In this document: positions 34,763 through 36,436 of the stretch, piece by piece | Layout: every line of letters begins with the position of its first letter | Numbering within the stretch: the stretch's first letter is position 1 | Assembly (NCBI RefSeq): GCF_024170465.1 | Contig: NZ_JALJYF010000002.1 | Span: forward strand, 868,001 to 932,000 | DNA from: Natronospira proteinivora | GTDB lineage: Bacteria; Pseudomonadota; Gammaproteobacteria; Natronospirales; Natronospiraceae | Length of the DNA: 64,000 nucleotides | Direction of reading: 5' to 3' | Notes under the pieces: model-generated | Databases searched by the model: none | Told to the model about the DNA's origin: nothing | The model's input: only the letters and a program-made list of their open reading frames with translations | Made by a program: the position numbers and the translations under genes

Positions 34763-35290
34763 ATGCCCATTCGTAACTACAAGGATTATCAGCCAAAGAT
34801 GGGTGATCGCGTCTACGTGGATGAAATGGCTTTGGTGATTGGCGAGGTGGACTTGGCCGATGATGTCTCCATCTGGCCCATGTGTGTGGTGCGCGGCGAT
34901 GTGAACTTCATCCGCATCGGTGCCCGCTCCAATATTCAGGATGCCACCGTGATTCACGTGACCCATGACGGGCCCTATACCCCCGATGGCGGCATTCCCA
35001 CCATCGTCGGTGAAGACGTCACCGTGGGCCATAAATGCCTGCTTCATGCCTGCACCATCGGCGACCGTTGCCTGATCGGCATGGGGGCGATTGTCATGGA
35101 TGGTGTGGAGGTAGGCGATGACGTGATCATCGGCGCCGGTTCCCTGGTTACCCCCGGCAAGAAGCTGGAATCCGGCTGGCTCTATCGCGATTCCCCCGCC
35201 CGCCCGGCCCGCGAACTCAGCGAGCAGGAGCTGGAACAGCTCAAATATTCTGCCGAACACTATGTCCGGCTCAAGGATCACTACCTATAA
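34763..35290 (+). CDS. Gamma-carbonic anhydrase family protein (YrdA/CaiE-like)
   Basis: 175 aa left-handed beta-helix of hexapeptide repeats. Candidate metal ligands are His65/His68 (VIHVTH), His90 and His95 (VGHKCLLHAC), spaced as in gamma-carbonic anhydrases. The C-terminal helix follows (ELSEQELEQLKYSAEHYVRLKDHYL region). Cytosolic; whether it hydrates CO2 or is a structural homologue cannot be told from sequence. Confidence 0.9.
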   Translation: MPIRNYKDYQPKMGDRVYVDEMALVIGEVDLADDVSIWPMCVVRGDVNFIRIGARSNIQDATVIHVTHDGPYTPDGGIPTIVGEDVTVGHKCLLHACTIGDRCLIGMGAIVMDGVEVGDDVIIGAGSLVTPGKKLESGWLYRDSPARPARELSEQELEQLKYSAEHYVRLKDHYL

Positions 35291-35379
35291 GCCTGGACAA
35301 GCCAGGGCAGCTTACGATTGGTAATGTGGCCCCCACAGCCGATATTGCTAGCAGCCGGCACCCAACATAGCGTATCCGT

Positions 35380-35605
35380 TGTGGGAGGGCCATTACTCGG
35401 CTCTTCCCTGAGCCTCGCCCCTTCGGGGCCTTCCGCGTTGCGGAAGTTCAAAAACGTTATTCGGCCCGTCCATGGGCCTCACCCTGCACTCACATGCAGG
35501 GCCTGGCACAAAGTGCCAGTTCAAATGCGTTCCTTACGCATTTGTCCATACGCTTTTGTCCTGGCCCGATGGGAGTTTGTCGCGGCAGGAAAGCCGCTCC
35601 CACAG
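35380..35605. repeat. REP-flanked chain of six perfect hairpins
   Basis: A GTGGGAGGGCCATTACT-type head (35381-35397) and a reverse GTGGGAGCGGCTTTCCTG-type unit (35579-35603) enclose six successive perfect stems: 35417-35429 (5 bp), 35431-35445 (6 bp), 35463-35478 (5 bp), 35482-35501 (7 bp), 35503-35519 (7 bp) and 35522-35544 (9 bp). Loops are 3-6 bases. It occupies the 342-base gap between the convergent carbonic anhydrase and aroE genes. Short open frames here are not convincing genes. Confidence 0.85.
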
Positions 35606-35632
35606 CGGATGGCTGCGACCGGTAAGTGAATA

Positions 35633-36436
35633 TCACCGTCTCAACAAGGCTGTGGTGTCTGGGCGGGTGTTGCGCCATAACTGGTAGGACTCCGCCGCTT
35701 GTTCCACCAACATACCCCAGCCATCGGCGATGTGGGCGCCGTAACGCAAGCCCTGATGGAGAAAGGGTGTGAGTGCGGGACTGTAGACCAGGTCGTAGCA
35801 AAGGGTGTCGGGCGCCAGCAGGCGGCGGGGAAATTCAAGGCTGTCGCCACTCAGGCCCGCGGCGGTGGTGTTGATGATCAGATCAAAGCTGTCCGTCGGC
35901 CATTCGCCTAGATCACCCGTGGTGATGGTGAGGTGGCCGGGGAAGTGTTCGGCCAGAGTTCTGGCGCGAGCCGGAGTGCGATTAGCAATGTGCAGTCGGC
36001 TGATGCCGGCATCCAACAAGGGGCCCAGGATGCCCCGGGCGGCACCTCCGGCGCCAATGACTAGGACATGGCGCTTTTCCAGGCGGACGGCCAGGTTCCC
36101 GGTAATGTCCCGGAGGAGGCCGGCACCGTCGGTATTGTCACCTAGCAGTCGCCTATCCTCTAGTCGTTTGAGGGTGTTGACCGCCGCCGCTCGCTCGGCT
36201 CTGGCGGTCAGTTTATCGGCCAGTTTGAAGGCACTTTCCTTGAAGGGGACAGTGACATTGGCACCCTTGCCGTCCTTCTCGAAGAAAGCTCGAACGGAAG
36301 CCTCAAAACCATCCGCCCCCGGATCAATTCGTTCATATTGAATAGCCTGACCGGTTTGTTCGGCAAACTGCTGATGGATTTCCGGGGAGCGGCTGTGGGC
36401 CACCGGATGACCGAAGACGGCGTAGCGGTCCGGCAT
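35633..36436 (-). CDS. aroE: Shikimate dehydrogenase (NADP+)
   Basis: 267 aa. The substrate site [10 protein letters not shown], catalytic lysine region [17 protein letters not shown] and the dinucleotide motif GAGGAARGI are all present. It reduces 3-dehydroshikimate in aromatic amino acid synthesis. The gene starts three bases after the hemB stop, so the two are co-transcribed. The enzyme looks complete. Confidence 0.95.

Follow-up and report, generated by a model that had tools for sequence, protein, structure and literature searches.

Hairpins between two converging genes

The window, a stretch of 64,000 nucleotides from Natronospira proteinivora, contains a dense row of hairpins between two converging genes, one for a hexapeptide-repeat protein and the other for shikimate dehydrogenase. 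A preliminary description had listed six successive perfect stems with loops of 3-6 bases within 128 bases; reading of the sequence recovered all six, in exactly 128 bases (35417-35544). Two stems were added to the list, a seventh at 35399-35403/35410-35414 and an eighth at 35449-35457/35550-35558, the latter split by an inner insertion and with one A.C mismatch, giving seven contiguous perfect stems and one split stem between the genes. The features of the locus are as follows.

34763-35290, forward strand: hexapeptide-repeat protein gene, converging neighbor (Pfam Hexapep, E 1e-17)
35381-35394, forward strand: left half of an interrupted REP, GTGGGAGGGCCATT
35395-35458, forward strand: outer element, part 1, with the ACTC start, H1, H2, H3, the 5' arm of H4 and the first loop base
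35399-35414, forward strand: outer H1
35417-35429, forward strand: outer H2 (stem 35417-35421/35425-35429, 5 bp)
35430-35446, forward strand: outer H3 (stem 35430-35436/35440-35446, 7 bp)
35449-35457, forward strand: outer H4, 5' arm
35459-35545, forward strand: inner element, complete, 87 nt, with the ATTC start and final T
35463-35478, forward strand: inner H1 (stem 35463-35467/35474-35478, 5 bp)
35482-35501, forward strand: inner H2 (stem 35482-35488/35495-35501, 7 bp)
35503-35519, forward strand: inner H3 (stem 35503-35509/35513-35519, 7 bp)
35522-35544, forward strand: inner H4 (stem 35522-35530/35536-35544, 9 bp)
35546-35559, forward strand: remainder of the outer element, with the rest of the H4 loop, the H4 3' arm (35550-35558) and the final T
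35560-35569, forward strand: right half of the interrupted REP, CCTGGCCCGA
35580-35605, reverse strand: second REP, inverted, CTGTGGGAGCGGCTTTCCTGCCGCGA
35633-36436, reverse strand: shikimate dehydrogenase gene (aroE), converging neighbor (Pfam Shikimate_dh_N, E 3e-24)

The facing GTGGGAG-type units that had been described as bounding the row look like REPs. The left unit is continued beyond the hairpins, at 35560-35569, and in sequence comparison the rejoined halves, GTGGGAGGGCCATT^CCTGGCCCGA, match an intact REP, GTGGGAGGGCCATTCCTGGCCCGA, of which the genome holds 4 exact matches and 18 at up to three mismatches, as compared to none for the reversed control. The outer element is inserted at ATT^CCT, in the loop of this REP hairpin. 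The inverted unit has more than 20 similar stretches in the genome and forms a REPIN/BIME-like pair with the interrupted REP, and an outer inverted repeat is present at 35374-35397/35587-35610. Immediately to the left of the REP, an imperfect inverted repeat (75%; 35321-35344 and 35373-35396) is possibly a degraded REP.

The outer H4 has the inner element in its loop, at GTT^CC. The rejoined outer H4, AAAAACGTTCCATACGCTTTTGT, matches that of an uninterrupted copy at C1:1230649 (AAAAGCGTTCCATACGCTTTTGT). With covariance models, the outer element was matched at G000:C2:903393-903458 (model R1) and 903393-903470 (model R2), and the inner element at G000:C2:903457-903546 with 90.5 bits (E 1e-17). 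The row is thus made up of three nested layers, an element copy within an element copy within a REP, and the earlier suggestion of a composite mobile element was right and can be given this precise form. As to its history, the REP hairpin loop (ATT^CC) took up a first copy, the H4 loop of which (GTT^CC) later took up a second.

Folding of the region was well beyond chance (z about -6 to -7), in line with the earlier impression that the pattern is not accidental. An RNA fold of 35315-35630 gave -148 kcal/mol, as compared to -113 +/- 5.9 for shuffled sequences (z -5.9, 0 of 100 shuffles), and the DNA fold of 35395-35605 gave a z of -7.1 (0 of 200 shuffles).

A widespread four-hairpin element

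A search of the genome with the region retrieved related stretches, and folding of these revealed a repeated plan of four hairpins: RYTC, H1 (loop NTCCNT), YC, a purine, H2, H3, TY, H4 (loop TCCNN) and T. Most copies measure 65-92 nt, lengths of 72 and 75 being the most frequent, and the ends, an RYTC start and a TTTGT end, are not inverted repeats of each other. At two loci in one genome (L041, L084; G002), insertion into a GTCGTT microsatellite gives the exact element ends, ATTC...TTTGT.

The covariance model R1, which was built on five aligned copies, gave 9 matches in the 2.9 Mb genome of N. proteinivora and identified copies in 39 of 95 relatives. With the covariance models, the element was recovered in 172 of 370 genomes of Gammaproteobacteria and in 77 of 397 genomes of Pseudomonadota, non-gamma families included. 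Among the hosts are Salmonella, Citrobacter, Klebsiella, Dickeya and Pectobacterium, as well as Dyella, Halomonas, Marinobacter, Alteromonas and Ectothiorhodospira, and plasmids also carry the element. In E. coli, 1208 of 5426 genomes have at least a partial match, of which 980 cover most of the query. A family in the same phylum and outside the Gammaproteobacteria (f203, G401-G529) has many copies per genome, and 81 copies were counted in a single enterobacterial genome of 4.9 Mb (G563:C2). Viral spread was considered and set aside, since a pattern search matched only 2 IMG/VR contigs; a Mu-like phage has one copy in its terminase gene.

In three genomes (G133, G046, G157) the copies are enclosed by longer repeated units, and part of the spread is passive, through duplication of the longer repeats. 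In G133 (L247-L253) and G046 (L254-L262), the element is part of repeats of about 110-330 bp that have spread as wholes. Recently amplified copies had been pursued as a route to the enzyme, which was abandoned because those in the three genomes ride in such repeats.

Pairing is retained while the sequence changes

Whether the stems covary across copies, a check proposed along with the preliminary description, was examined in an alignment of 46 copies from many genera. Copies number in the hundreds, and pairing was retained while the sequence changed, the opposite of the refuting outcome named with that check (copies with the sequence but not the pairing, or no other copies): 93.9% of the cells were paired, 23 of 26 pairs were altered on both sides, and the covariation score was 0.529, as compared to 0.150 for shuffled alignments and at most 0.10 for slid structures.

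Alignments fitted to a covariance model are biased toward the modeled structure, and a model-free control was therefore made with a left-end pattern in which the arms of H1 were left free. This pattern had more than 50 matches in 276 genomes, and the reversed pattern had none. The matches comprised 35 distinct strings with 20 arm sequences. The inner three H1 pairs were all Watson-Crick in 26 of the 35 strings, where about 0.5 were expected, and all four free positions in 19, with an expectation of 0.14.

Two additional pairs were identified outside the nested stems. Base 4 pairs with the purine before H2 (4-27; C-G 196, T-A 55; Watson-Crick in 251 of 260), and base 3 with the pyrimidine before H4 (3-87; A-T 174, G-C 26; Watson-Crick in 200 of 218). 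Their mutual information was 0.69 and 0.46, respectively, as compared to null maxima of 0.064 and 0.055. Through these pairs the 5' end is anchored at the base of H4, next to the 3' end.

Wobble pairs were rare. Among 6258 pair cells there were 46 G-T pairs versus 106 A-C mismatches, and the share of G-U in minimum free energy folds was 4.2% for the elements, 7.1% for tRNAs and 11.8% for shuffled elements. Pairing has therefore been selected at the level of DNA, or in both strands. Taken together, the conserved pairing and the end-joining pairs point to selection on folded DNA.

Insertion between TT and C

The flanks of 266 distinct copies place the insertion at TT^C without target duplication. 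Since TT and C are covered by the model, they look more conserved than they are, but empty sites confirm the target. Empty REPs in the same genome provide unoccupied versions of the REP target. In E. coli, the ERIC between yehL and yehK is empty in an ST131 strain (GCGTT^CGTTCACC) and occupied in IHE3034, where two extra G precede the TT and the junction is not perfectly clean. Comparison of empty and filled sites shows no target duplication, and the element is polymorphic among E. coli strains.

The targets are of several kinds. Apart from REPs, they include the H4 loops of other copies (in the window and at L125 in a metagenome-assembled genome), hairpins resembling terminators (at L042 and at several loci of Dyella), a microsatellite of (GTCGTT)n (L041), partial tRNA 3' ends, and ERICs, with as many as three copies in a single one (L236). 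Hairpin loops are frequent and clear targets. As a strict target the hairpin loop was rejected: there are many clear cases, yet automated folding of rejoined sites placed a hairpin loop at 19% of the sites classified as "other" versus 13% of controls, which is only a small excess. Copies were seen in either orientation relative to genes, with no shared function seen among the neighboring genes.

The element was also identified as in-frame insertions, in genes for a Mutator transposase, an SNF2 helicase, a PglZ protein, a DUF6079 protein and a phage terminase. In the Mutator transposase, the motif GDGALGF is split at a TTC codon, and the profile matches of this protein, the DUF6079 protein and the SNF2 helicase break at or beside the element. 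A defense-like cluster of genes for PglZ, DUF6079 and SNF2 helicase proteins (L297; G147:C1:1266000-1284000) bears about 12 copies, most of them of 72 or 75 nt and within open frames. In the Mu-like phage PhiKM and in a prophage of E. coli JJ1886 (L240 / L235), the element directly follows the ATG of the terminase gene and adds 24 codons; the gene of the relative KP12 is 72 nt shorter there. The RefSeq start of the terminase gene has been placed downstream of the element.

Copies near tRNA genes, in ERICs and in Rfam families

Many copies are located near tRNA genes: 63 of 120 genome hits were within 300 bp of a tRNA, as compared to 7% of control positions, and so were 21 of 146 pattern hits, as compared to 2.3% of control positions. 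The tRNAs for Ser, Arg and Gln dominate. Here, the targets are partial tRNA 3' ends downstream of intact tRNAs, and the element, in antisense orientation, separates bases 57 and 58 of the T loop. Some of these copies are organized in tandem arrays with a period of about 163-217 bp that consists of the tRNA end, sometimes a terminator, and the element.

In N. proteinivora itself (C1:1551 kb; L032/L035), partial 3' ends follow the genes for tRNA-Arg(acg) and tRNA-Ser(gct), with the element at the T-loop position, and the terminator of tRNA-Arg(acg) has also been partly copied. Elements adjoin the same two tRNAs in another family (L077, L079). At three further loci (L070, L071, L069), the units downstream of tRNAs hold an inverted copy of the T arm (CGAACC..GGTTCG), giving a larger palindrome in each.

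The Rfam family RtT (RF00391) aligns to tRNA-linked copies. Four of these scored 31-36, below the gathering score of 45, and the window gave no match. Conversely, model R2 identified four divergent copies in 1.8 kb of the tyrV/tyrT locus of E. coli K-12 (E 2e-7 to 1e-5). Each 178-bp unit of the tyrT repeats has a divergent four-hairpin element inside a partial tRNA 3' end (GGATT^...^CGAACC), at the position also used by the other tRNA-linked copies, whereas RtT has been defined as a single, locus-specific RNA with another consensus structure. In the literature searched, we found no connection between RtT and a mobile family, or between RtT and the inserts in ERICs or REPs. A second Rfam family, AaHKsRNA22 (RF02902), aligns in full length and with all hairpins to the reverse strand of many copies; the window scored 30.9 and other copies 28-36, below the cut-off of 39.8. 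Its consensus, H4-GAAC-H3-H2-GAG-H1-GAGUA, corresponds to the reverse strand of the element, although it is annotated as a small RNA of Aggregatibacter. With sub-threshold matches only, Rfam was rejected as the answer for the window; it later emerged that these entries are other names for the family.

All intergenic E. coli copies that were examined lie within an ERIC (IRU). ERICs and their long variants in E. coli and other enterobacteria hold 1-3 copies at fixed places, whereas the ERIC itself is a separate palindrome of 127 bp with TA duplications that serves only as a target. Wilson and Sharp reportedly described, in 2006, ERICs with inserts of about 70 bp. The classical tyrT/rtT repeats of E. 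coli, AaHKsRNA22 and the ERIC inserts all contain this family.

Comparison with known mobile elements

The existence of the family, its conserved fold and insertion at TT^C were observed directly, and mobility in evolution is well supported. The elements in the window are probably two copies of a mobile DNA element that is conserved in structure, non-autonomous, and inserted between TT and C without target-site duplication.

We compared this element to known systems. REPs and REPINs, which are associated with REP-associated transposases, are likewise non-autonomous hairpin DNA with short tag bases beside the hairpins. However, they are defined by one GTAG/CGTC-type tag and a single hairpin, whereas the element has four hairpins, an RYTC start, no GTAG tag and another size, and the REP is here the target. 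Nor does it have the terminal inverted repeats and target-site duplication of ERICs and classical MITEs, or the GTTRRRY core of integron attC sites at the crossover, as judged from flank and end logos. Rickettsia palindromic elements are also short hairpin elements with in-frame insertions in protein genes, as observed here; by description they are set apart as single long palindromes of the Rickettsiales with another structure. We know of no TT^C site for those elements.

Miniature elements derived from IS200/IS605 (PATEs) have end hairpins, no target duplication and end bases that pair 5' of the hairpins. Correspondingly, the element has H1 near its 5' end and H4 near its 3' end, and no duplication. 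The differences are that no known IS ends match, that no gene-bearing relative was found among the loci tested and that the RY lies inside the element. The nearest parallel in mechanism is IS200/IS605, in which DNA-DNA pairing with bases located 5' of the end palindromes determines where cleavage occurs (PMC8266576). In the present element, covariation links bases 3 and 4 to the bases preceding H4 and H2, respectively, but all of these are part of the element and not of the target.

How the element may move

The element probably acts as folded single-stranded DNA. Its first two bases would pair just 5' of H4 and of H2 and close a junction, so that the two ends meet and can be cut and joined by a transposase provided in trans. 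Duplication of host repeats (ERICs and others, tRNA-end arrays) would then amplify the copies passively. The best model for the movement, tentative as it is, would be an HUH-type enzyme with base-paired selection of the ends, as in IS200/IS605. No gene-bearing, autonomous version was found among 23 loci with the left-end pattern; all were short, with one ending at a contig edge. Y1/HUH transposase genes (PF01797) were present in 26 of the 39 genomes that have the element and in 25 of the 56 that lack it (p 0.04, uncorrected for genome size). This co-occurrence is weak and several many-copy genomes have no such gene, on which grounds a Y1 transposase was rejected as an obligatory partner. There was no general strand bias, with 53 copies in the leading and 41 in the lagging sense; one genome was skewed (G563:C2), with 18 of 20 non-clustered listed copies in the leading-strand sense and 2 not.

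That another class of recombinase moves the element, either a tyrosine recombinase acting on folded single strands, as for integrons, or a bridge-RNA IS110-type enzyme, is unlikely, even though it agrees with the lack of target duplication, the fixed orientation at TT^C and the REP targets. Some IS110-type enzymes target REPs. ISPpu9 of P. putida is inserted in REPs (PMC8450116). However, the integron core is absent from the element ends, where base -3 is A, G or T in about one third each, and IS110 is not known to require four conserved DNA hairpins.

Two further explanations are each less probable. In the first, the copies are a functional RNA, such as a small RNA or a processing signal for mRNA or tRNA 3' ends, that has spread by duplication, with mobility incidental. 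The coverage of four copies at the tyrV/tyrT locus by RtT, the matches of many copies to AaHKsRNA22 slightly under its cut-off and the proximity to tRNAs fit this explanation. It is contradicted by G-U pairs being fewer than A-C mismatches. Copies also occur within genes, within ERICs and REPs and in a microsatellite, facing either way relative to genes, and no function shared by the neighboring genes was seen. The same scarcity of G-T pairs and the many unrelated contexts speak against a structured RNA, as had been suggested for the row, being the conserved function, even though some copies are part of known RNAs (rtT). In the second, nothing is dedicated to movement today, and old insertions are carried by ERICs, tRNA ends and other repeats. 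This would account for the copies within longer repeated units in three genomes and within ERICs in E. coli, but unrelated sites share TT^C, copies are nested, insertions are found in genes and phages, and close relatives show precise empty sites.

It is most improbable that a role as terminator or transcription barrier maintains the hairpins, as the location between converging genes and the very stable fold had suggested, since most members of the family have other locations, some of them within reading frames, and family membership already explains the stems; a barrier may arise here as a side effect, which leaves the rest of the family unexplained. Neither a structured RNA nor a transcription barrier is needed for the row.

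Implications

No description of the element family was found in the literature searched, which is weak evidence as subscription papers were outside its scope. As far as the searches reach, the unified family is new, while the general kind, non-autonomous miniature mobile DNA, is already known. With somewhat less than even confidence, we propose an unrecognized class of structure-defined mobile DNA across much of the Gammaproteobacteria and other Pseudomonadota. It would move as a folded single strand with a four-way junction, by means of an enzyme yet to be found, and enter hairpin loops at TT^C. The tyrT/rtT repeats, the inserts in ERICs, a small RNA of Rfam, the arrays of tRNA ends and the peptides inserted in frame would all derive from it.

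Features that have been filed separately, namely the tyrT repeats of E. coli, the inserts in ERICs, an "sRNA" of Aggregatibacter, rows of hairpins beside tRNAs and odd inserted peptides, are united by the finding in a single family of elements that is sharply defined by structure and in which base pairing is under selection in DNA rather than RNA. For annotation, the model is of use in flagging genes that carry in-frame insertions. Repeats of E. coli that have long been held to be unrelated contain the element, and with precise empty and filled sites at hand, what moves such elements becomes testable in this species.
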